A DNA stretch of 26,904 bases from the IMG/VR virus record IMGVR_UViG_3300025117_000607, positions 1 to 26,904 of that record. One strand, given 5' to 3'. The notes below the pieces were generated by a model. It ran no database searches. It worked only from the letters and a program-made list of their open reading frames with translations, and was not told where the DNA came from. The position numbers were made by a program, and so were the translations under genes. Shown piece by piece: positions 3,306-26,375 of the stretch. Position 1 is the stretch's first letter, and each line of letters opens with the position of its first letter. This DNA comes from a virus.

Positions 3306-3605
3306 TTACTTAGATGCTGAACCAATCCAAACCCGGATAGCATCAATCTGATCTGCACAGCCCTCTAAGCGTCCAGCAAGCGTTACGATATAGCCACGGA
3401 TATCAGTCAACGTAGCTGTATCAGGGACAGGTGCATCAACCTGTGAGCGCGTGCACGGTGCTACAAGCTCAACGGGCGGCACTAATTTCTCAACGCGGGG
3501 TGGCTCGTGTATTGTCACTATTTGCCGAGTAGGAGTCCCGCAGCCCTCTAAGAACAGCACGGAGCCCAGGAGGAGCAGGAGCGTTATCCAATAGGGTAGC
3601 TGCAT
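3306..3605 (-). CDS. Outer-membrane spanin lipoprotein (Rz1-like)
   Basis: This 99-residue frame starts inside the upstream i-spanin gene in another reading frame and runs 184 bases past its end, the classic overlapping Rz/Rz1 layout. A hydrophobic N-terminus (WITLLLLLGSVLFLEGC) ends in a lipobox with Cys about residue 22, and a proline-rich stretch follows (HEPPRVEKLVPPVELVAP), as in o-spanins. The mature lipoprotein would sit in the outer membrane and bind the i-spanin across the periplasm, fusing the two membranes in the last step of lysis. At 99 residues it is longer than lambda Rz1, having an extra C-terminal helix. Confidence 0.82.
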   Translation of the reverse strand: MQLPYWITLLLLLGSVLFLEGCGTPTRQIVTIHEPPRVEKLVPPVELVAPCTRSQVDAPVPDTATLTDIRGYIVTLAGRLEGCADQIDAIRVWIGSASK

Positions 3606-3921
3606 GGTTCGCCTCTTTGATTATAGTAGCTATGCGAACTTCCGATCGAGCCCGCGCAGCGACTAGCTGTTTAGACGCGGTATCCGCCCTCTGGTTAGCT
3701 TGTTCAAGATTGGCTGTGACTTGTTCAAGCGCCACGCGATAGCGTTCATTTGCACCTTCAGCAACATCGAGTTGTGCATTAAGGCCAACTATCTGTCCGT
3801 CTCGTGCCTCAATACGCCACTGTTGAACCTTCCAGGTTGCACCTAGGGCAAGGACTAATATACCGACTATGGCCCAAGCACCGAGCTTGGAACCTAGGAA
3901 TTGTAGAACCATCATAGGCAT
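3490..3921 (-). CDS. Inner-membrane spanin (Rz-like)
   Basis: The ATG overlaps the stop of the holin-like gene (ATGA). The 143-residue product has one N-terminal membrane segment (about 12-28, GAWAIVGILVLALGATW) followed by a long coiled coil from about residue 38 to 105 rich in Q, E, A and R. This is the i-spanin topology: N-terminus in the cytoplasm, periplasmic rod. The Rz1-like gene begins within its last third in another frame, which strengthens both assignments. Family identity rests on architecture, since spanins diverge too fast for motif recognition. Confidence 0.82.
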   Translation of the reverse strand: MPMMVLQFLGSKLGAWAIVGILVLALGATWKVQQWRIEARDGQIVGLNAQLDVAEGANERYRVALEQVTANLEQANQRADTASKQLVAARARSEVRIATIIKEANHAATLLDNAPAPPGLRAVLRGLRDSYSANSDNTRATPR

Positions 3922-10800: not shown

Positions 10801-12023
10801 GAAGTGATGCCGATCCAATAGTAATCTGTGCCCGCACTCAAGCCAGTTGGCAAGGTATCGCTGGAAACTACATTCACGCGCGTTCCAGTACGAAGCTTCT
10901 GGATTGTATCCCCTACTGTAATGATATCAGTAGTCGCGGCTGTGAATGTCGTGACGCCCCTTAAAGTATGCGTGCCCGTACCAGCATCAATGATGTCAAT
11001 TGATGTACCGGCTAGAGCATCCGCCTTGCTGGTAGCGATCTTACCCGTCGTGGCACTTTGCCTGATCCAATAATAGGCCGTGTTGAGGGACATGCCTCCG
11101 GGCAACGTAGTCGTTGTCGTTGCGTAGATCGCCCACCCCGTTGGAATATCAATAGAGCAGGTTAGCAGATCAGTATCAGCGGCGGCTGTGAATGTGTATC
11201 CAGGGTTTCGCGCCTGGATTTCATCGCAGACATTCGCGGCGGCTTGGAGCGCCGTATCGTCTATGTTAGCGGCTGGCCAGTTATACCCGAATTCGTTCTT
11301 GAGCCAATCGGCGATGCATAACGCCGCATTATCAGTCCAGCCCGTGCTGGCGTCACGCGAGTCTAGAATATTGTCCTTGCCCCGCACGATCACAGAGATA
11401 TTAGGCAGCGACCCGCCCTTGAACTTATCAGCATCCCACTTGAGCTGGATATAGAGCTTGGCACAGCCAGTCTGCAAATGAGTGCCGCTCCATTTAGTAG
11501 CGCCTACGGCAGCGGTCAGTTCAGAGTGAAATGTAGAATCTCCAGCTGTGGTCCCTAACCCTAACCACGCGCTGACATTCCCCGCATATGTTCCTGTAGC
11601 GTCACCATTGGCATCGAGTGGGACTACTTCATCATTCAGAAGCAGAGCATCTAGCCTCGATACTCTATGCGTGGTTAGTGTCAGAACTACATGGAGCAAG
11701 TCATTATCGCTGGTCGTATGCAGAAAAGTTTGAGGCCCAGATACACGCATCCAGCCATAGACCATGCGTCGCGCGGTGATCGGCTGCCGAATCATACGTG
11801 TTCGATCAACAGCCGTATCAGCAAAATTGGGGATATTCGGCTTAGGGGGCTTCGGCGTCATTGCCATGGTAGCGAAGCCAACCGCTGCGACGGCTGCGAA
11901 CGCTACACCGGCTGCCAGCCATCCCGCCTCTATCAGCGTTGTGCTAAAGATCACGATACCGGCAGAGTATGCCGCTGAGGCTGCGAAGGTAGCGCCAACT
12001 AGAGCTACGACTGCGGGAGGCAT
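7893..12023 (-). CDS. gpJ-like tail-tip / host-specificity protein with FN3 domains and beta-propeller
   Basis: This 1376-residue protein is the tip attachment protein, the main candidate for contact with the host. A hydrophobic Ala/Gly-rich N-terminus (about 7-55) resembles gpI-type sequences. The gpJ core spans about 70-290 and 440-650 (MVYGWMRVSGPQTFLHT, ALCIADWLKNEFGYNWP, LFNGVKGVFSSPDDLWQ). A duplicated YYW module interrupts it at about 298-440. Two fibronectin-III-like domains follow (668-785 and 786-890), then five propeller blades (about 910-1170; AWQISTASYDG, DGTKLYVSG, YQYxLS). A beta-rich C-terminal end closes the protein (1215-1376). Its ATG overlaps the radical SAM stop as TAATG, so translation is coupled. 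The propeller segment is AT-rich relative to its flanks, suggesting exchange of a receptor-binding module. Confidence 0.88.
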   Translation of the reverse strand: MPPAVVALVGATFAASAAYSAGIVIFSTTLIEAGWLAAGVAFAAVAAVGFATMAMTPKPPKPNIPNFADTAVDRTRMIRQPITARRMVYGWMRVSGPQTFLHTTSDNDLLHVVLTLTTHRVSRLDALLLNDEVVPLDANGDATGTYAGNVSAWLGLGTTAGDSTFHSELTAAVGATKWSGTHLQTGCAKLYIQLKWDADKFKGGSLPNISVIVRGKDNILDSRDASTGWTDNAALCIADWLKNEFGYNWPAANIDDTALQAAANVCDEIQARNPGYTFTAAADTDLLTCSIDIPTGWAIYATTTTTLPGGMSLNTAYYWIRQSATTGKIATSKADALAGTSIDIIDAGTGTHTLRGVTTFTAATTDIITVGDTIQKLRTGTRVNVVSSDTLPTGLSAGTDYYWIGITSTTGKVATSLANSRAGTAVDITDAGTGTHLIFATGEPRYTLNGTIDTSQDAEDLLKKLLSAMAGSRVTSGKTITLYAGAWRAPTVTITEEDLAGSVSIQTRNSRRDLFNGVKGVFSSPDDLWQPTDFPPVQVAAYVTQDQETELWRDADLSYTNSPTMAMRIARIDLERNRRQISGSWPCKLTAMRILGFDIINVDHTRFGWDAKTFEVGSWKFVIRSGSEGPTLGCDLQIKEIDANVYAWTPGTDEAVMQPAQTTTLPDPFTVAAPTSLVLASGTNELFLREDGTVFTRIKATWTAPADSFVTSGGQIEIQWKRSTDADVAANWETGPNVTGSATVNWILDVEDGVSYDVRVRSVNVLGVKSAYTTVTGHTVIGKTTKPEDVTTFTAQQNGVTVVFKWSQVTDIDLSGYEIRFMKAPFVWEDATTLTSVTRGTQVTSAAVPPSPTESGVQVAWVFGIKARDTSENYSASAKTFSTVIVNVFDVISENEQRPLWIDWETNRSIAGVSYASKSFSVSSQNSEVIDLRFSGDGTKAYILGQNNKIIYQYGLNTSGDISTASYQGVSYTLPVGALDTLGGFFIKPDGTKFYVTNNVAQKIYQFSISSAWQISTATLDNTSFTTSAEISDGQIGISLKLDGTKLYVSGIPTAGLPKRLFQYSVASAWQISTASYDGVSFLSPQTTQTRNHHFYRDGRRLFILGDTPFSVYQYHLSVPWDLSLVDYDATQFNPSSQDTQPLAFRLSEDMQIAYVLGNTNDKIYQYKNEGGFYRNPITGNLNPLSTITASGNDFNVFNSYVYSPVSQAIYEAPEIDLGTDLSARIWADIAANLGPVSSGSANYQLQIDYKTSIGSYDGFENWTVGDVGSLQYVKARIVSEMSSGTDITRLTGFNPTIDAEEREEHAETVTINSGGSTVNFTKNFALVPAVGIWNAEASAKVPGLGTVTTSGFVGHVFSASGTNIGGTVNWRAVGV
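8516..9311 (-). other. AT-rich five-blade beta-propeller segment inside the tail-tip gene
   Basis: Residues about 905-1170 of the tail-tip protein consist of five related units, each with a strand like SFSVSSQ, an xDGTKxYVxG strand and an end like IYQYxLS followed by AWQISTA. Base composition changes sharply: three 60-base lines counted here (9001, 9121, 9181) have 20, 18 and 20 G+C (30-33%), against 33 of 60 at 9721 and 37 of 60 at 10561 in the same gene. The change coincides with the domain boundary. Confidence 0.8.
10704..11132 (-). repeat. Duplicated YYW module in the tail-tip protein
   Basis: Residues about 298-352 and 383-438 are two copies of one module: TLPxGxSxxTxYYWI, then TTGKxATSxAxxxAGTxxDI and DAGTGTHxL. 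The linkers (TFTAAxTD) also match. The copies have diverged in DNA, so this is an old internal duplication. The module interrupts the gpJ-like core and is probably a surface decoration domain. Confidence 0.82.
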
Positions 12024-13021
12024 TAGTGCACGCTCCCCATTAACTTTCGGGCTTCTTGTACCAATGCTCCGTGCACGAAGTTGACCTCACCAATGTCAGG
12101 CACGAACATACAAGTCGGGGGCGTATTCAACTCACCAAGATCAACTTCATCGATGCTGGGCCACCTGATGACACGGAAGGTGTTCCCACTGAGATTGAAC
12201 ATCAAGTGATAGGGATTGTTATCAGCGGGCATTAATTCACAGGGCCAGTTACGGGCGGCACAGCAGTCATGAAGAATGGGCAGAAAATCGGACAGGAAAA
12301 AGGATTCATCCCGGCAAAGACCGATCTTCGATGGGATCCTTATTCTAAAGTGATGAACGCGATCTTGATATGCCGCAGCGCTGTCCAATATCTCTGTGAG
12401 ATCATCGACCGTTCGCATAGTAAAGGATATATGGTCGATATAGACATTATGACGTGCCATAGCTTCAAGCGCAGCAAGCTTCGTTTCCCAACCCTTTACA
12501 TAACCTTTCGTATGAAGAGAGAAGCACACAGCATTCAAATTAGCGGCCATCAAGCGCCGGATATAATGGTCATCGTTCATACGAAGGCCGTTCGTATAAA
12601 TGTGCACGTGACGGCCGGTCTTTCTTATATTTGCTACGATGCGGGGAAGATCATCGCGCAACGTAGGCTCAGCGCCCATCAATATGATGCTGCGACCCCC
12701 TTCCACCCGCTCGACTACGTCCATGATTTCTGTTATTGAAGGGTCAGGTTTATGCCCAGGCATGTGATAGCAATGAGGGCAGCGGATATTGCAGCGATCC
12801 GTTACCGGCACCATGCACACATTGAATCTGGTCTTCCATGGTACAGGGTCTTGCATCGTGTGCATGAAGGCCCAAGCATCATGTGACCGCTCGATAAGCA
12901 CCGTCTGTATTCCATGCAGCTTGCATTCTTTAGCTAGATATAAGCCGCCCTCTGTCTCATAGATTTCAGCCGTCACGGGTTGGAGGCAGTCCCGGCAGAG
13001 TGAAGTGGTTTCCACAGTCAC
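12023..13021 (-). CDS. Radical SAM enzyme, COG1964-like, embedded in the tail-tip operon
   Basis: I choose GTG 13021: it overlaps the upstream TGA (GTGA) and has TGGAGAG about 7 bases upstream; ATG 13048 is possible but has no good RBS. The 332-residue product has an N-terminal metal-binding knuckle (SLCRDC, Cys9/Cys12; ECKLHG, Cys33/His36), then the radical SAM cluster motif DRCNIRCPHC (Cys77, Cys81, Cys84), MGAEPT (118-119, a GGEP-type SAM loop) and HIYTNGLR. The SLCxxC...CxxHG head plus TDRCNxxCPxC is typical of COG1964, the family of archaeal tetraether synthase and MJ0619. This copy is shorter and lacks a recognisable SPASM end. It would carry [4Fe-4S] and start radical chemistry on an unknown substrate. 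Its stop overlaps the tail-tip start (TAATG), so it is co-translated with virion genes. Confidence 0.87.
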   Translation of the reverse strand: MTVETTSLCRDCLQPVTAEIYETEGGLYLAKECKLHGIQTVLIERSHDAWAFMHTMQDPVPWKTRFNVCMVPVTDRCNIRCPHCYHMPGHKPDPSITEIMDVVERVEGGRSIILMGAEPTLRDDLPRIVANIRKTGRHVHIYTNGLRMNDDHYIRRLMAANLNAVCFSLHTKGYVKGWETKLAALEAMARHNVYIDHISFTMRTVDDLTEILDSAAAYQDRVHHFRIRIPSKIGLCRDESFFLSDFLPILHDCCAARNWPCELMPADNNPYHLMFNLSGNTFRVIRWPSIDEVDLGELNTPPTCMFVPDIGEVNFVHGALVQEARKLMGSVH

Positions 13022-13470
13022 CGTCCAACTCTCCAGGCACGGGAACATTGGGATATAGGAATCTTCGTTAAGCCAGCAGGCCCTACGAATAGCCCATATC
13101 GATTATCAAGCCCAATAAAGCCTAACGCTGGGGCTAGACCGCCGTCTGGCAGTTGTACTTCAGCCTCAACAATATCCCCACGTTGAGCGAAGGTTGCTTG
13201 TATTGGCTCGCTGCCCGTATGACTACGAAAGGCATCAGCCGCGTTCGGTAATTCAACCGCGCCGAATAGTACCTTCATACGTTTCGCGGCGCCGAGCGCC
13301 GTTGTGTATTTTCCACGGATGTTGGATGTGAAATCAGCTTTGAGAATTGCCTCAGCACAGCCTAGCGCACCTAATACACAATCATGCTCGCCCCATTTGA
13401 AAGGCTTATCCTGAATACTTCGAATATAAGCTTCCAATTCTTGGGGCCAGTTATCAACACGATCGAGCAT
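13018..13470 (-). CDS. DUF6950-type (NlpC/P60-like) tail assembly protein
   Basis: This 150-residue protein matches the phage pattern WPQELEAYIRSIQDKPFKWG-EHDC: the Cys of HDC is the expected active-site Cys of an NlpC/P60-like fold. A C-terminal GFIGLDNRYGLFVGPAGL and SQCSRAWRVG follow. Members sit just before gpJ-type genes and are thought to be tail-tip components or peptidoglycan-cutting aids for DNA entry. The second catalytic residue (His) is not obvious, so enzyme activity is uncertain. It starts directly after the preceding stop (TAGATG), and its own stop overlaps the radical SAM start. Confidence 0.77.
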   Translation of the reverse strand: MLDRVDNWPQELEAYIRSIQDKPFKWGEHDCVLGALGCAEAILKADFTSNIRGKYTTALGAAKRMKVLFGAVELPNAADAFRSHTGSEPIQATFAQRGDIVEAEVQLPDGGLAPALGFIGLDNRYGLFVGPAGLTKIPISQCSRAWRVGR

Positions 13471-19097: not shown

Positions 19098-19642
19098 TAG
19101 ACCAGACCTCCGCTTTTGATAGCGCGCTGAATACCGGCGACTATGACCTGGAGCGCTAAAGCCTCGGCGGTCTTCTTGGTAGGCAGCAAGCCTCGAGCCG
19201 GGATGCCGGGATGGTGGACCTCTTTAGCAAATACGACACCGTCAATGGTAGCAAACTTCAGGTACTTCCTGTTTGTGGGCCTGATAATGAACGGGTCGGT
19301 GCCATGATGGTGCCACTTCGCCATTTCGTTTTGCGTACCGACATCAACGTGATCGTTAGCTACCTTCACAGTGTAGGACTGTTGCAAGAATGCCCGAAAC
19401 CGAGAGGATAAGTGCCGTGGACTTGCACGGCCGCTGCTCTTTATCAGTGTATTCGGTGACATTGGCGGATGCGGGGTTTCTGTGCCAGCATCCCGAAGGT
19501 TCTGCACCATCCATTTCAAATGTCGATTGCCAATGGCCTGTAGAAGCTGCTTATCGTTGATGTTAGCCGCGACATGCCGGAGTCTGTTGACGGCACCGGC
19601 AAGACGCCCCGCATCAATCTGAACTGAAAAGCCTAGGGCCAT
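19097..19642 (-). CDS. Phage virion morphogenesis / tail completion protein (Mu gpG or HK97 gp10-like)
   Basis: The 181-residue product carries LKWMVQNLRDAGTETPHPPM followed by SPNTLIKSSGRASPRHLSS, then a beta part MAKWHHHGTDPFIIRPTNRK and GIPARGLLPTKKTAEAL. The RF-type helix followed by P-x-SPxTLxxK and later the HHxGT and PARxxLP motifs are the signature of the virion morphogenesis family. These proteins join head to tail or complete the tail. It overlaps the DUF1320 gene by 10 bases. This type is common in Mu-like and related siphoviruses. Confidence 0.8.
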   Translation of the reverse strand: MALGFSVQIDAGRLAGAVNRLRHVAANINDKQLLQAIGNRHLKWMVQNLRDAGTETPHPPMSPNTLIKSSGRASPRHLSSRFRAFLQQSYTVKVANDHVDVGTQNEMAKWHHHGTDPFIIRPTNRKYLKFATIDGVVFAKEVHHPGIPARGLLPTKKTAEALALQVIVAGIQRAIKSGGLV

Positions 19643-20124
19643 ATCTGCAAGTCCCTATCATTCAGCAGGTCATCGTTCTTCTCAGTATCCTTGACCTGAT
19701 CGTTCCAACCACCACCCTCATGATATGTGGGCTGATAGTCCATAGTATTGGAATAGGCAGCGGACGTACCGGCACGCTCACCGACGATTACACCCGCTGA
19801 ATCAACGAGCAGAAGTTTACCAGCAGCAATTTCCTTCAGTGTTTCAATGGCACGTTCGTACTGCTTTGGCCATGCTGATTCCTTGAGCATTGCCGCTGTA
19901 AAAACACGCAAGGTCAAGGCACGGTGAATTGACATATCGGTAGCGATAGCTTCCAGCATAGGAATAGAGCCAGAAACAGGCACGGTATACGCACGAGCTA
20001 TTCTGGCGTTGATCTCGGCTTCAGCGGGTTTGATGTATGCCTCGACGATTGCTGAGCTGGTCATATCACTTAGCGACCCGATATTGGGTAATAGCACCAG
20101 CATATTTGAGACAGTCGTGTACAT
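19633..20124 (-). CDS. DUF1320 (Mu gp36-like) head-tail connector protein
   Basis: I place the start at ATG 20124 (MYTTVSNMLVLLPNIGSLSD), preceded by AAGGCG. An open frame extends 228 bases further upstream, but that part reads as an out-of-frame shadow of the 82-residue gene before it. The 163-residue product has IVEAYIKPAEAEINARIARA, SIPMLEAIATDMSIHRALTL and ALxxLKEIAAGKLLLVDSAG, the DUF1320 pattern of phage neck proteins (I-x2-ARLxxxY, then LxxIAxGxxxL). It forms the connector between capsid portal and tail. Confidence 0.8.
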   Translation of the reverse strand: MYTTVSNMLVLLPNIGSLSDMTSSAIVEAYIKPAEAEINARIARAYTVPVSGSIPMLEAIATDMSIHRALTLRVFTAAMLKESAWPKQYERAIETLKEIAAGKLLLVDSAGVIVGERAGTSAAYSNTMDYQPTYHEGGGWNDQVKDTEKNDDLLNDRDLQIWP

Positions 20125-20140
20125 TCTGCGCCTTATAGAG

Positions 20141-20389
20141 CTAGCCGTCAGCCCGAATAAAATCGAGATAGTACGTCTCACCTTCATTGAACTTGCCAAG
20201 CAGGGCCGGATTGCAGACTGTGAGGGACAACATTCCAGACGGTGAGAACTTAGCGTAGGTATTGTTTTCGTCGCTTCCGTCGGCGGGGTAACTGTCAGAG
20301 CGCGAAACCGGATTGAAATAGAGGGTTTCTTGGCCCTCGTGACGCCGGTCAATATGATTGATTTTCATCTTCGCTCGCATAGCAGCCAT
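20141..20389 (-). CDS. Conserved phage neck-region protein (82 aa)
   Basis: ATG 20389 has AAGGGG 9 bases upstream. The product MAAMRAKMKINHID continues with YPADGSDENNTYAKFSPSGM and LSLTVCNPALLGKFNEGETYYLDF. The ENxxYAKFSPSGxLxLxxxNP...FxxGxxYYxDF form recurs in short head-tail proteins next to DUF1320 genes in many phages, though I know no function. It directly follows the glycosyltransferase fusion gene in transcription order, 32 bases away. Confidence 0.75.
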   Translation of the reverse strand: MAAMRAKMKINHIDRRHEGQETLYFNPVSRSDSYPADGSDENNTYAKFSPSGMLSLTVCNPALLGKFNEGETYYLDFIRADG

Positions 20390-20421: not shown

Positions 20422-23400
20422 TTACCAATGTTCCTGTGCCTGAAGCGGCATCATGCGCTCTTTCAAACGGTACTCGATCTCGATGCGGGCCTCTTCATAG
20501 TCAGCGAAGCGTGCAACGATGGGCTGCGGAACCTGACCATTGTGCAGATTGTCACCCTTGCCGTCCCGGTTGGCACCGACTGTGAACACGACATCGATGC
20601 CACGACCCAGAACCTGGAGTGCTTGCGTATAGTATTGCAGGCTATCGATGTTCGTGTATTTGATCTTGCCAAGAAAGTGCTCGCGATAGAGCTGCACGAC
20701 TTCCTCTGCTAAAGCCCGTACCTCAGTCGTCACATTGCCGTTGCTTTGCTGAAGCTGATATTGAGCTAGCAGCATATTGTCACGCATGACAAAATGCTTC
20801 TGAAGCAGCCGTGTAGGATGGTCTCGCCTATCCATATCAAGTAGCGGCTTGTTACGAATGAAGCGTTGCCGCCTGATACTCTCATCGAGATAGCCAATAT
20901 GTGCGATGTTCACATCTGGCAGGATGAGGACTTCGCCGGGGCCTTCATTCAAGTCAAGCTCAGGGTGCTCGTGGATGCGTCCGATGAACTTCATCGATTT
21001 GCCTTTGAGACCGCCTTCGTATGGGTACGGCGAGCGGCGGAAACAGCGCACGGGCATGTCAGGGGAAAAACCAGCATCGATGGCGAAGTGGTGCTGCCTG
21101 ATTGAAAGGCCGTGCCATACTGACTGGCGAAGGTATTTCCGCAGGAACATGCCGCCAAGCAGCTTCTCGTCAGTGTCGATCCACAGCACCCAATCCATGG
21201 AACAGCCCGCTAGGGCCTCGTTTCGAGGCACATCAAAACCGCTGACCGTTGGATCAGAGCCCTTGACCAGCTTCGCACCGTACTTCTTAGCAATAGCCTT
21301 GGCATCTCCAGACATGCCCGTATCAGCGATGACTATTTCATCGATGTAGGGTTGCACAGATTTCAGACACCAGCCAAGGGTCAGCTCAGCCTCACGGCCA
21401 GCAATTATGCACGCAGATATGGTTTGACGCGGGCGCTGTAAGCGAAGCTTCCTGTCCCAGTCAATCCTACCAGTGGGCTTTTGATCGGCACGGTACGTGA
21501 CCAGATAGTATCCGATCATATCACCGGTAACAGAATTCGGATAGATCACACCAGATGTCATTGCGAAGTCTGGCTTGCTGCCGAACATATCCCGCAGGTC
21601 ATGCTGGTCGAACTCCCAGATATGACCACGGAACCCGTCCCAGTTCGGTGTGCCATACTCGGACGTGCCGAATGGCACCGTGAGTATGACGCTACCACCC
21701 GGTTTGATGTGCTGTTCAAGCGAATCCATAACAGCGTACGGATCGGGGCAATGCTCCAGCACTTCACTGATCAACAGGCAATCATAGGGGGCTTTCGAAG
21801 CAGGCACCGCAGTCTGATCACCGACTACGAACTCGAACTCAGCATTACCACGGCCAAACTTTTCAGCGAAGGTCTTGGCCCATTTGATCGCACCTGGATC
21901 AATGTCAAGGGCAGTCCAGCTACGGCCCAGCTTGTTAGCGAAGTAGACCGTTGACCAACCATGCCCGCACCCGAATTCTAGAATGTTCTGGAGTTCAGGG
22001 TGCTGTTCCAAGAATGCTTGGATGTTCAGAAAGCGTTGCTCACCTGTGTTCTCGAACATCGGTGCATGAGCTTCGAGCGGTACAGAGCTCAGTCGTTTGT
22101 CAGTTTCCTTTCCCGCTGCCAGATAGTGCTTTCGATAGCGCTCGGTGCCGAGGGTGAATGCATACTCGTCTTGGACCTTGTTTAGAAGTATGTTTGCAGC
22201 CGGAGAGCCATCATCCAGATTATCAAGGCGTCCAAGAACTTCACGCACTGCTCCAATATCACTGCGCTGATAAAAGTGATGGGCAAGACGCACAGGGTCG
22301 TCATTGAACGTATCGAACAGGGTATCGAACCAGGAGCTCCACTCCTGGGCCACTCCAGCCCATCCCAGGTTGGCTGAATGGGCCATGCCCGCTAGGGCTG
22401 CCCGGTTATAAGCTTCCTCATCTCCAGCGAGCCTTAAAACCGCCCCTGTAAAGGCATCCCGGTAGGCATCAGACCAAGGGTCGCCGTCAATAAGCACGCC
22501 AGCATCGGGATGAAGCGTTTCAGGCAGCGCCCCGCGTGCGCTCGTAACGACCGGCATTCCGCACGCTTGGGATTCCATGATCGATATACACGAAACCTCC
22601 GTAAAAGTCGGGGACGTGGGCGAAGGTGTCGGGTAGGCATAGATGCCCGATTCAGCGTATTGCTTATAGAGTTCATCTTTCGGAAGATAGCCGACGAACC
22701 TGACCTTATCACCGAACTGTGCCGCCTGCTGTTTCAAGCCAGCATAGAACGCGGCCATATGCTCAACAGGATTGTTATAGCCATAGAGCGCGAGCTCAAA
22801 CTCAGGGTCTTTGGCCAAGAGCGCTGGAAGGATACTGCTGAGCATGACATCAAGGCCACGCTCAGGGCGTGCTGAGTACACGAGGCGTTTGCGCAACTTC
22901 TTGGTCAGATCAACCTTGGGAATACGGAACAGATCGATCCCATTACGTGAAGCATAGACCGTTTCATCAGGCAAACCATAGACCTTGCGATACTGCGTCT
23001 TCATGTAGTTGCTGACCGTGATGAACCTGTCAATGTTCCATGACAAGGCACGGAAGGTATCAGCAACTCGGCCCAGAGCTAGGTCATGGCACCAGAGAAG
23101 GTTGATGCGTGCGTTGATGCTGGACTTGAACGGGCCTGGATCGCGCTGCACGATTGCGATATCAGCGGGCATTTGCTGGAGCGCGTGCTCAGCATAGCTG
23201 ATGTGAACGTACAGCACGCCATCATACATGCCGGGCTTCTCACATTCACAGAACATGCGAACGGAGTGCCCGAGCTTGGCCAGCTCACGTGCCATGCAGA
23301 TTGCAGCGGTTTCGCTTCCCCCAAGAGAGGAAGTCTCAAGGGTGTCACCCTGGAAGCGCATACCAGGAACCACCATGATGATTGTGTACTTGTCGCGCAT
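20422..23400 (-). CDS. Three-domain GT4 glycosyltransferase-methyltransferase-GT2 glycosyltransferase fusion
   Basis: The 992-residue protein combines three enzymes. Residues 1-370 are a GT-B fold GT4 transferase (LGGSETAAICMAREL at 26-40, SARPERGLDVML, ExxxxxxxE pair Glu268/Glu276 in FTEVSCISIMESQACGMPVV). Residues 445-640 are a class I SAM methyltransferase (LEFGCGHGWST at 474-484, ALDIDPGAI, SEVLEHCPDP, KPGGSVILTVPFG). Residues 659-850 are a GT-A fold GT2 transferase (ISACIIAGREAELTLGWCLK, DEIVIADTGMSGDA, DTD at 742-744). A helical tail follows. It would build a methylated glycan on an unknown acceptor, with both transferases and the methylase in one chain. It lies inside the structural operon between small head genes and the neck genes. 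All key motifs are intact. Acceptor and sugars cannot be read from sequence. Confidence 0.9.
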   Translation of the reverse strand: MRDKYTIIMVVPGMRFQGDTLETSSLGGSETAAICMARELAKLGHSVRMFCECEKPGMYDGVLYVHISYAEHALQQMPADIAIVQRDPGPFKSSINARINLLWCHDLALGRVADTFRALSWNIDRFITVSNYMKTQYRKVYGLPDETVYASRNGIDLFRIPKVDLTKKLRKRLVYSARPERGLDVMLSSILPALLAKDPEFELALYGYNNPVEHMAAFYAGLKQQAAQFGDKVRFVGYLPKDELYKQYAESGIYAYPTPSPTSPTFTEVSCISIMESQACGMPVVTSARGALPETLHPDAGVLIDGDPWSDAYRDAFTGAVLRLAGDEEAYNRAALAGMAHSANLGWAGVAQEWSSWFDTLFDTFNDDPVRLAHHFYQRSDIGAVREVLGRLDNLDDGSPAANILLNKVQDEYAFTLGTERYRKHYLAAGKETDKRLSSVPLEAHAPMFENTGEQRFLNIQAFLEQHPELQNILEFGCGHGWSTVYFANKLGRSWTALDIDPGAIKWAKTFAEKFGRGNAEFEFVVGDQTAVPASKAPYDCLLISEVLEHCPDPYAVMDSLEQHIKPGGSVILTVPFGTSEYGTPNWDGFRGHIWEFDQHDLRDMFGSKPDFAMTSGVIYPNSVTGDMIGYYLVTYRADQKPTGRIDWDRKLRLQRPRQTISACIIAGREAELTLGWCLKSVQPYIDEIVIADTGMSGDAKAIAKKYGAKLVKGSDPTVSGFDVPRNEALAGCSMDWVLWIDTDEKLLGGMFLRKYLRQSVWHGLSIRQHHFAIDAGFSPDMPVRCFRRSPYPYEGGLKGKSMKFIGRIHEHPELDLNEGPGEVLILPDVNIAHIGYLDESIRRQRFIRNKPLLDMDRRDHPTRLLQKHFVMRDNMLLAQYQLQQSNGNVTTEVRALAEEVVQLYREHFLGKIKYTNIDSLQYYTQALQVLGRGIDVVFTVGANRDGKGDNLHNGQVPQPIVARFADYEEARIEIEYRLKERMMPLQAQEHW

Positions 23401-23417
23401 TGGACCTACCTACCTTC

Positions 23418-23717
23418 CTAAATTGAAATTCTTTCCAGCGTATCACCCGCGTTGTTGCACAGGTACGCTGGATTATCGAACACAGCTACGACGGTCTTGC
23501 CGTCAACGCCGTGCAGGGTCGCGATTTGATAACGGTACAGAGAACCATTGGGCTTTCGCGTGCGTAGATCGCGCATTTCAAAGTTGCTCTGAATTAAAGC
23601 CAGAGCGTGATCTAGATCGGCCTGTGTCTTGGCTTGCTGGGGATGGCTGCTGTAATCGACGTTAGTTACATCGAATATAGCCCAATCACCGTTCCCCTTG
23701 GAAATCTTGAGAAGCAT
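23418..23717 (-). CDS. Hypothetical head-region protein (99 aa)
   Basis: This 99-residue frame has a leader (GTAGGTAGGCA before ATG) resembling that of the downstream glycosyltransferase gene. It reads LLKISKGNGDWAIFDVTNVD, a helix ALALIQSNFEM, then NGSLYRYQIATLHGVDGKTV. It looks like an alpha/beta globular protein without membrane segments. I do not recognise it. It ends 17 bases before the fusion gene starts, so it may be co-regulated with it. Confidence 0.62.
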   Translation of the reverse strand: MLLKISKGNGDWAIFDVTNVDYSSHPQQAKTQADLDHALALIQSNFEMRDLRTRKPNGSLYRYQIATLHGVDGKTVVAVFDNPAYLCNNAGDTLERISI

Positions 23718-23749: not shown

Positions 23750-24115
23750 TCATTCGCGGTTGGCGCCGACACCGGCGCGCTGCCCCATGATGAACGCTTG
23801 GAGCGTAAGAGGGACTGCGACAGCCTGTGCAAATTCAATGCGAGCGTGCGGCCAAGGCCACAGATCGACTACGAGGCCGAGCGAACCGTTACCAGCCGCT
23901 TTCAGATAAGCAGACTGACTGGTCGGGTCTTGCAAACGGCCTATATAGGAACCTGAATTGGGTCCAACCTGAAAGAACAGGTTGGAGGCGCTGGCAATGG
24001 TCGGGACATGGAGGGCGAATTGCCCGCGTGCCCCGACCAGATTGATGTTGCCAGACACAGAGTCACCGGAATTGACGAGAATGGTCTGAATATTGCGTAC
24101 GAGTGCTTCAGTCAT
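23750..24115 (-). CDS. Hypothetical head-region structural protein (121 aa)
   Basis: The product begins TEALVRNIQTILVNSGDSVS and continues GNINLVGARGQFALHVPTIA and SASNLFFQVGPNSGSYIGRL, then a helical AGNGSLGLVVDLWPWPHARI. It is beta-rich and Gly/Ser-rich, typical of virion surface or head accessory proteins. A GGAG RBS precedes the ATG. No family is recognised. Position after the capsid and its 192-residue neighbour supports a structural role. Confidence 0.62.
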   Translation of the reverse strand: MTEALVRNIQTILVNSGDSVSGNINLVGARGQFALHVPTIASASNLFFQVGPNSGSYIGRLQDPTSQSAYLKAAGNGSLGLVVDLWPWPHARIEFAQAVAVPLTLQAFIMGQRAGVGANRE

Positions 24116-24135: not shown

Positions 24136-24714
24136 CTAGTGGTGCGTCGTACTTGTGAGCTGCCACAAGACCTTCGTATCACGAGGCTGAGCGCGGTTGT
24201 CAGCAAAGCCGATCGTGAAGTAGCCTCCATCCGACAGGGTCTTTACTTCAAGCTGCCCAGGCACACCTTCTGCTGGAAAGACATGGTACATGACTGGCAC
24301 GAGCTTGTTGGAAATCGCCGCGCCATCAGAGAAGCCAAACGAGGCCCAACCTGTAGCCAGTGATACGACTTCGACGTCACGATTGGAAGTGCCCGAACTC
24401 TGAGCCGTGCCGTTCTGGCGCGTGGTCAGGAAGATCAAGCTATCCGCTGCGATAGCCGCATTGGACACCGTGACTGAAGCCGCATTCGAGTTGATGTTAG
24501 CAACGCCAGCGATGATGTTTCGATTGGCATTGCCTTCCATCGCGAAGTGGATCAGACTGTCGGACTTTACAGCGGCCGTGGAAACAACGACCGTCGCAGA
24601 ACCTGAGTTGATGGTACTGCGACCAGCGAACTGATGCGCGTGAGACCGGACATCAACAAAACCCGGCCCTTTGAACATCGGCCCAAACAGAAGTTCAAGC
24701 GGGCTCTTGCTCAT
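24136..24714 (-). CDS. Head-region protein with internal duplication, candidate capsid decoration or head fibre
   Basis: The 192-residue protein has AAGGAG upstream of its ATG. An N-terminal segment (LFGPMFKGPGFVDVRSHAHQ) is followed by two similar 26-residue repeats: STINSGSATVVVSTAAVKSD (33-58) and ANINSNAASVTVSNAAIAAD (72-97), each ending DSLI. The repeat pattern (short GSA, TVxVS, AAxxxDSLI) is a beta-sandwich strand set seen in phage surface proteins. A later part (GWASFGFSDGAAISNKLVPV) is also beta-rich. It may be a decoration protein or head fibre, which would be a plausible target for virion modification (inference). Confidence 0.65.
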   Translation of the reverse strand: MSKSPLELLFGPMFKGPGFVDVRSHAHQFAGRSTINSGSATVVVSTAAVKSDSLIHFAMEGNANRNIIAGVANINSNAASVTVSNAAIAADSLIFLTTRQNGTAQSSGTSNRDVEVVSLATGWASFGFSDGAAISNKLVPVMYHVFPAEGVPGQLEVKTLSDGGYFTIGFADNRAQPRDTKVLWQLTSTTHH

Positions 24715-24978: not shown

Positions 24979-25959
24979 CTAAACGACAGTATCGATCAAG
25001 TAGCCGAGGTTCGTTGCCACGAGCTTTTCATCCTGGAAATAGCCCGCCTCAACGATCTCGACATTGCGCTCACCCGGCCCCTCTTCACGCTTGGTGCCGA
25101 CAGCCATCGGAGCCGGGAACTCAGGAGGAGTCCAACTGAACCGAAGGCCAAGGGTGCGGGTCTGAAGGCCGACCGCCGGTTCGATATGCGCCAACAGGAC
25201 TCCGGTGCCAAAAAGAGCGGTCATTGAAGACGTACCACCTTCAAGAGCGTTCTCTTTGACTGCTCGGCTGATGAGCAGCCTATCGACCTTGAACGTAGCG
25301 GCAAGCTGCGCCTCATCGATTTGACCGCCCGCCGTATACTTGTACATATCGAGGAGCTGAGGGTGACGACGGATGACCTGGAACGTGTTCCAGTCCATAG
25401 CGGCAGTATTAGCAATGAGGCCAGTCTGCTGCTGAATGAACGCGTGGCCTGTGGTCACATCGCCGAGCGGATCGGAGTTGACGTAATCACTCCAACGGTT
25501 GGTGCCTGTCAGCAGCGTACCCGAACCAAGGTTCGATGCCGAAGTCACCAGATTGAGGATGCGTTGCTCTTGATCACGAAGCAGATCCGTGGTCACCAGA
25601 TTAATGGTATTTCCACGGAGATTGAACGCGACATCAGCATTGGCTAGGTCTTCGAGAGAGATTTCGCCGGCGAGCGCAAAGTTATCAGCGAAATACTTGT
25701 CAGACGAAGCCGTCCACTCAACGCGTCGTGCGCGGGTCTTAGGCGCACGCCTCGTATCCGGGATGGTAAGGAACGCTGCCTTATCGATGATGGCATAGCG
25801 ATCCGACTGTTTCCCCACGGTGACAGAGGGGAAGAGTTGGCTGCCGATGAGGCCGTCAACCCCAGTGGAAAACGCCGCCACGGCGAGGGTCGACAAAAGA
25901 ACGTCGTGGTGGGCATCCGGTCCACTGACCGTAGCATAAGTCTTGGGTCCGATAAACAT
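24979..25959 (-). CDS. Major capsid protein (HK97-type fold)
   Basis: The 326-residue product follows the decoration protein and has the layout of an HK97-type or Mu gpT-like capsid protein. There is an N-terminal arm (SGPDAHHDVLLSTLAVAAFS), a central beta-hinge region (YFADNFALAGEISLEDLANA), a long helix (TTDLLRDQEQRILNLVTSAS) and a C-terminal P-domain stretch (GQIDEAQLAATFKVDRLLIS; YFQDEKLVATNLGYLIDTVV). AAAGGAGGG precedes the ATG. Fold assignment rests on these segments and the gene order; a Mu gpT versus HK97 split is not resolved here. Confidence 0.84.
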   Translation of the reverse strand: MFIGPKTYATVSGPDAHHDVLLSTLAVAAFSTGVDGLIGSQLFPSVTVGKQSDRYAIIDKAAFLTIPDTRRAPKTRARRVEWTASSDKYFADNFALAGEISLEDLANADVAFNLRGNTINLVTTDLLRDQEQRILNLVTSASNLGSGTLLTGTNRWSDYVNSDPLGDVTTGHAFIQQQTGLIANTAAMDWNTFQVIRRHPQLLDMYKYTAGGQIDEAQLAATFKVDRLLISRAVKENALEGGTSSMTALFGTGVLLAHIEPAVGLQTRTLGLRFSWTPPEFPAPMAVGTKREEGPGERNVEIVEAGYFQDEKLVATNLGYLIDTVV

Positions 25960-25973
25960 TGTGATGCCCTCCT

Positions 25974-26375
25974 TTACAGTGCCGCCAGCGAGCTCGGCGC
26001 CTGATGCGCCGGGATGCTGAGCAGTACACGAATGACTTCACTGTTAGCACCAGCCGCTTCAAGTGCCGTACCAAGAATCCAGTCGCCTGACGCAGCGTGC
26101 GCCAAACGGCCTGCACTATTGGTAGTCACAGAACGGTTAGCGGTAATAGCGCCGCCAGCGATTGCCTTGGTCTCACCCGTAATGCCAATAGAGGCGTTAC
26201 GGCCGCTCGTGGGCTTGTTTTGCAGCACACCCGCAACTTCCTGCGTGCCGCCGCCAGGGTTGGATGCGACGTTGACAATACCCGCTGCGGAATAACGCAT
26301 GACGAGGTATTGACTACCAGAGAGATCAACAGCGGCCTGAGCCGTGATTGCCTCAACTTTTCCGAACAGAGCCAT
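25974..26375 (-). CDS. Capsid decoration protein (DUF2190-like)
   Basis: The 133-residue protein sits immediately before the major capsid gene in transcription order, the typical decoration-protein slot. It reads SGSQYLVMRYSAAGIVNVAS, a GxxxGVLQNKPTSGRNASIG stretch, then KAIAGGAITANRSVTTNSAG and ASGDWILGTALEAAGANSEV. This AGGAI-x6-VTTNSAGRxxxA pattern with GTALEAA is what I recognise as DUF2190 head decoration proteins. They trimerise on the capsid surface. A strong GGAGG RBS lies upstream. Confidence 0.8.
   Translation of the reverse strand: MALFGKVEAITAQAAVDLSGSQYLVMRYSAAGIVNVASNPGGGTQEVAGVLQNKPTSGRNASIGITGETKAIAGGAITANRSVTTNSAGRLAHAASGDWILGTALEAAGANSEVIRVLLSIPAHQAPSSLAAL

Follow-up and report, generated by a model that had tools for sequence, protein, structure and literature searches.

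The window analyzed here is the whole of a viral record of 26,904 bases (IMG/VR record IMGVR_UViG_3300025117_000607), and positions 20422..23400 of its minus strand, including the stop codon, hold an open reading frame that starts with ATG and runs for 992 codons with no internal stops. The encoded protein combines two glycosyltransferases and a methyltransferase. Residues 1-365 (22306..23400) form a GT4 domain of the GT-B fold, with the motifs GGSE (27-30), RPERG (178-182) and EX7E (268-276). A helical linker (residues 366-455; 22036..22305), the least conserved part of the protein, leads into a class-I SAM methyltransferase domain (residues 456-640; 21481..22035) with motif I around residues 474-481. 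This is followed by a GmaR/SunS-like GT2 domain of the GT-A fold (residues 641-838; 20887..21480), bearing DxDE at 742-745 and HEHPE at 810-814, and by a mostly helical C-terminal region (residues 839-992; 20425..20886) into which the alignment with SunS and ThuS extends.

The GT4 domain is recognized by the Pfam models PF13439, PF13692 and PF00534 over about residues 26-310; it has the two Rossmann domains and EX7E motif of the family, and its fold aligns with GT4/GT-B enzymes such as MshA, BshA and sucrose-phosphate synthase at Z 31-34 over 310-339 residues (VIA-align). The methyltransferase matches PF13489 (E 2.8e-19, residues 458-605) and has both the Gly-rich motif I and the acidic residue after strand 2 that mark class I. 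PF00535 matches the GT2 domain from residue 662 with E 0.0024, which is below the cut-off for a single sequence; the assignment is nevertheless secure because of a family profile, described below, and the structure, and both the GT-A fold and the DxD metal-binding motif are present. AlphaFold2 models the protein as a single compact chain (mean pLDDT 93.9, pTM 0.93). In a viral structure library the full-length matches were proteins of several domains from uncultured phages that superposed poorly overall (rmsd near 28) and so give no indication of kinship. An earlier note, made from the sequence alone, had described one 992-residue chain with intact motifs for two glycosyltransferase folds and a methyltransferase and had named structure prediction among the checks; the reading frame, Pfam, the family profile and the predicted structure all bear this description out. 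Two further IMG/VR contigs (L002 and L003) carry the fusion at 100% identity, and these identical contigs, the many homologues and the one compact predicted fold rule out an indel or assembly fusion of neighboring genes.

The gene sits within a run of virion structural genes, all on the minus strand. In the direction of transcription, these are a cement/head-fibre-like protein (25974..26375; PF09956 with E 6e-5, just under the cut-off; phrog_673), the major capsid protein (MCP; 24979..25959; phrog_1005, E 5.1e-60), a protein of 81 residues, a small head-region protein of 192 residues with two internal repeats and a weak K1-lyase_C match (24136..24714), a small conserved protein of 121 residues (23750..24115; its family was found in 26 placements), a rarely conserved protein of 99 residues directly upstream of the fusion (23418..23717), the fusion itself and, directly downstream, a gp36-like head-tail connector (19633..20352 as listed, with a true start that may lie inside; PF07030, E 5.4e-11; phrog_195). 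Neck, tail tube and tape measure genes follow the connector and are co-directional with the fusion, which thus lies, as the earlier note had it, inside a structural operon with head genes on one side and connector and neck genes on the other.

Several other genes of the window deserve mention. A radical SAM protein with an HMPTM zinc ribbon is encoded inside the tail module (12023-13048, minus strand), its best NCBIfam matches being TrsS and tetraether lipid synthase, both far under cut-off. A divergently oriented gene on the plus strand (684-1844) encodes an M48 peptidase with a PDZ domain and a lipoprotein-like N-terminus. Positions 3306-3921 of the minus strand hold an overlapping spanin-like pair, the outer member of which matches Rz1-like LysC (PF23793); the host is therefore probably Gram-negative.

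Relatives of the fusion were sought in viral, bacterial and deposited phage sequences. A profile scan of IMG/VR gave 265 related stretches, the best 80 of which were retained, and a scan of bacterial genomes gave 63 loci, some of them full-span copies in MAG contigs. Distinct full-span homologues numbered 92, mostly about 30-59% identical. Some of the MAG-contig full-span copies (L022 and L025, labelled Proteobacteria and SAR324) lie among head and tail genes of phages, and others, from Myxococcales (L023 and L024), have no recognised head genes nearby. At this search sensitivity none of 50,697 deposited phage records held a match covering 80% of the fusion protein, and partial GT4 matches occurred in seven of them. 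The cultured capsid relatives Roseobacter CRP-6, Pseudomonas KPP23, Vibrio 13VV501A and Arthrobacter Ottawa all lack the fusion. No description of the fusion family was found in the literature searched, a library poor in subscription papers.

When the loci are compared, the association of the fusion with the capsid gene becomes clear. The MCP gene lies upstream of the fusion in 51 of the 53 loci that hold both, the gap between the fusion and gp36 has a median of 18 nt, and the fusion falls between MCP and gp36 in 48 of the 49 loci that have MCP, gp36 and a distinct fusion. Loci were also retrieved with MCP alone to avoid circularity, using a closer MCP set for the collection scan because the broad MCP alignment was too diverse; of the 32 distinct capsid loci that extend 5 kb or more downstream, 28 have the fusion there. 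How far two fusions have diverged correlates with the divergence of the accompanying MCP (Mantel r 0.76), gp36 (0.81) and tail tube protein (0.83), values reached in 0 of 2000 permutations, a correlation that is partly expected for any genes that stay linked. Three loci (L117, L118 and L139) have the fusion and its flanking genes inverted relative to the structural genes, still between the capsid and connector genes; despite this inverted cassette, the capsid-based search and the Mantel tests disfavor a mobile accessory gene with random placement. The position in the structural operon informs on timing, not on substrate.

The interval between the capsid and connector genes is also informative in its other contents. 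Capsid relatives without the fusion (L205, L214, L222 and L224) have other genes in this slot, such as that of a beta-helix protein in L222. Among 84 slot proteins of relatives there are 10 radical SAM enzymes and six lectin-fold proteins, and the slot genes further include extra glycosyltransferases, a GDP-mannose dehydratase and a UDP-sugar dehydrogenase, a content that would suit a locus for surface modification. In six loci (L122, L127, L128, L129, L130 and L131) the slot gene directly upstream of the fusion is radical SAM-like, and a radical SAM-like ORF occurs somewhere in 34 of 136 fusion loci; the slot gene represents a possible second modification of head proteins. As a separate observation, the region upstream of the head genes in one of the identical contigs (L003:45-4572) encodes a radical SAM/SPASM protein, two Methyltransf_24 proteins, a 260-residue protein and a stand-alone methyltransferase akin to that of the fusion.

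Conservation was assessed in an alignment of 65 homologues that are 31-55% identical to the fusion protein of the window. In the GT4 domain R86, H105, D106, N153 and RPERG are invariant, and of the EX7E pair, position 268 is E in 59 sequences and D in six, and E276 is kept in 64 of 65. The GT2 domain has seven invariant residues (D742, D744, E745, R785, G807, H810 and E811). In the methyltransferase, G477 is present in 64 and D499 in 60 of the 65, and D540 is also conserved. Mean pairwise identity is highest in GT2 (47%), followed by GT4 (40%), the C-terminal region and the methyltransferase (33% each) and the linker (25%).

The architecture itself varies among members of the family. One homologue (L145) is naturally split into GT4 and methyltransferase-GT2 genes with a TGATG overlap, and the fused state is therefore common, not universal. 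Another locus (L115:2122-11081) holds three tandem copies of the fusion, two of them without the methyltransferase domain; this domain is likewise missing from L028 and L029, and its motif I is degenerate in L020, which indicates that methylation is dispensable in some members. A regular-expression search for the methyltransferase motif flagged two more (L105 and L097) as being without motif I. Solo paralogues of the fused methyltransferase are present in L003, L113 and L120.

Five homologues are interrupted by inteins (L004:2119-6276, L104:7395-11246, L113:2446-5940, L116:2378-6331 and L179:15938-19921), at three positions that fall inside or next to conserved motifs of the glycosyltransferase domains: within GG|SE of GT4 in L004, within the EX7E segment in L113, and just before HEHPE of GT2 in the other three. 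The splicing-domain model PF14890 scores above its cut-off in L004, L104, L113 and L116; L179 was judged on sequence alone, and all five inteins end in HN before S or C. Those of L104 and L116 additionally match HNH and NUMOD3 models. Conserved motifs are common intein locations, and the placement fits a functional importance of the interrupted sites; inteins inside glycosyltransferase motifs are nonetheless unexpected, and such enzymes are an unusual setting for them. The intein-bearing fusion of L004 is adjoined, in the head region, by a gene for an IS605-type OrfB (TnpB-like) transposase (L004:190-1398).

The kinship of the GT2 domain offers a clue to the substrate. A profile built from 61 aligned GT2 regions gave whole-domain matches to the solved structures of GmaR (E 3.5e-30), ThuS (9.5e-21) and SunS (3e-19 to 5e-19), and matched chondroitin synthase and other polysaccharide or small-molecule GT2s at 4e-9 at best, mainly over the first half. 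The predicted fold of residues 641-992 aligns best with SunS (Z 22.1, 273 residues aligned) and ThuS (Z 21.3, 277 residues aligned), with SunS/ThuS matches spanning Z 20-22 and the next family reaching Z 16, and Foldseek agrees that SunS and ThuS are closest. By whole-domain similarity in sequence and fold, both above those to polysaccharide GT2s, the domain belongs with the GmaR/SunS/ThuS group. It resembles SunS and is outside the SunS family as curated: the GT2 domain of a homologue scores 31 bits against TIGR04195, which has a cut-off of 350 bits, and the SunS model is absent from the best 25 matches listed for P0001. GmaR transfers GlcNAc to flagellin (PMC9638930). Sequence and modeled fold thus appear to point to a protein acceptor; the likeness falls short of proof, the set of solved structures is small, and other members of the GT2 clade may use other acceptors.

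We therefore suggest that the enzyme probably glycosylates the phage's own head protein, a reading favored because the GT2 domain matches GmaR, SunS and ThuS far better than it does polysaccharide GT2s. In this scheme a cytoplasmic enzyme with three activities would act late in infection, before or during assembly, on a phage head protein that would most likely be the MCP or the cement-like protein. The GT2 domain would start the glycan by linking one sugar straight to an acceptor side chain, in the manner of GmaR with flagellin and SunS with its peptide, the GT4 domain would add a second sugar, and the methyltransferase would cap the latter. We infer the acceptor, the order of these steps, the sugars and the presence of the finished glycan on the virion. 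Regarding the acceptor, the earlier note had pointed to the neighboring head proteins, including the one with repeats. That suggestion is weakened: the family of the 192-residue repeat protein occurs in only 30 loci, as against 53 placements of MCP and 54 of the cement-like protein, and many distant relatives have no small gene at all between MCP and the fusion, with gaps of 64-300 nt. The repeat protein is thus a weaker candidate for sole acceptor, and MCP and the cement-like protein are the more constant candidates.

A related explanation is that the sugars go to a protein of the tail, to one that binds the receptor or to a different surface protein from the slot, and not to MCP or the cement-like protein. 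The slot and downstream genes do include lectin-fold and beta-helix surface proteins, and both the capsid and the tail tube are glycosylated in mycobacteriophages, according to work cited in PMC12619734. The surface proteins of the slot are, however, variable or absent from locus to locus, whereas MCP, the cement-like protein and the connector are constant, and we consider such an acceptor quite unlikely. The glycosylation and methylation of hypermodified phage DNA would be a more distant alternative, phage glycosyltransferases that act on modified bases being well known (as cited in PMC12619734). Yet no member of the thymidylate-synthase-type base hydroxymethylase family turned up in 12 virus contigs (41-61 kb) and one MAG, 13 records in all, in a search whose control worked, the GT2 clade acts on proteins and the gene sits in the head module, all of which makes this explanation very improbable. 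A Tet/JBP search likewise gave no match but was run without a positive control and carries no weight.

The earlier note had offered two outcomes side by side, a virion protein decorated with a short, methylated glycan or the capping of a host surface glycan, and the first is now the better reading, as the GT2 domain has its kin among enzymes that glycosylate proteins or peptides and the gene stays next to that of the capsid protein and has diverged in parallel with it. According to the second, the enzyme would modify O-antigen or capsule late in infection and so block superinfection or the sticking of progeny to debris. GT4s that act on small molecules or polysaccharides include many that are similar to this GT4 domain, the synthesis of surface polysaccharides often involves GT4 enzymes and methyl caps, and a Gram-negative host is probable from the Rz1-like protein; integrase genes in 4 of 12 large contigs also suggest that temperate members may exist. 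Against this stand not only the protein and peptide kinship of GT2 but also the fixed position in the head module and the divergence with the capsid; neither a membrane anchor nor a flippase was noted next to the fusion gene, and the known seroconversion cassettes usually sit with lysogeny genes. We regard modification of host glycans as unlikely, and glycosylation of a head protein remains the preferred reading.

Comparison with characterized enzymes places the fusion in context. A close parallel in architecture is A064R of chlorovirus PBCV-1, a GT-GT-methyltransferase protein that finishes the virus glycan and is described as among the few enzymes with three transferase domains; like the phage fusion it unites, in one polypeptide encoded by a virus, two glycosyltransferases with a class-I methyltransferase, and it builds a methylated glycan end (PMC9614988). 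The two were compared by function and architecture only: A064R has 638 residues in the order GT-GT-MT and finishes an existing N-glycan in a virus of a eukaryotic alga, whereas the phage protein has 992 residues in the order GT4-MT-GT2 and a GT2 domain that looks like an initiating protein glycosyltransferase. GmaR, the flagellin GlcNAc transferase of Listeria and the closest solved structure to the GT2 domain by sequence, is likewise a cytoplasmic enzyme that modifies a self-assembling surface protein (PMC9638930). Unlike the fusion, it combines GT and TPR domains with a linker and an antirepressor domain, also functions in transcription and has no GT4 or methyltransferase partner. SunS and ThuS, the peptide S-glycosyltransferases that are the best structural match to the GT2 domain and C-terminal region, act directly on a ribosomal peptide; they belong, in contrast, to single-enzyme peptide systems and are about 16-20% identical over the aligned part. 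The glycosylation enzymes of mycobacteriophages are separate proteins in actinobacterial phages, unlike this one fused chain from phages of apparently Gram-negative hosts. In mycobacteriophages glycans have been reported on both the capsid and the tail tube (Freeman et al. 2023, cited in PMC12619734).

What is new here is the GT4-MT-GT2 architecture, the GmaR/SunS-like GT2 domain within it, the fact that it appears to be nearly a core gene of an uncultured capsid lineage, and the presence of inteins. Taken further, the fusion may be a lineage-defining capsid-glycosylation enzyme that initiates, extends and methyl-caps a glycan directly on a head protein. It would be inherited vertically with the capsid throughout a large group of uncultured siphovirus-like phages and would, in its entirety, be missing from deposited phage genomes; we put forward this broader view tentatively, as somewhat short of an even chance. 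Because the three activities reside on a single chain, each step would be open to point mutation of one protein. Phage virion glycosylation is known from few cases and has seldom been set in the context of genome evolution. In a broad uncultured lineage the fusion has the behavior of a core head gene, such that sugars on the capsid may belong to the normal make-up of these particles, which would bear on adsorption, immune recognition and stability.
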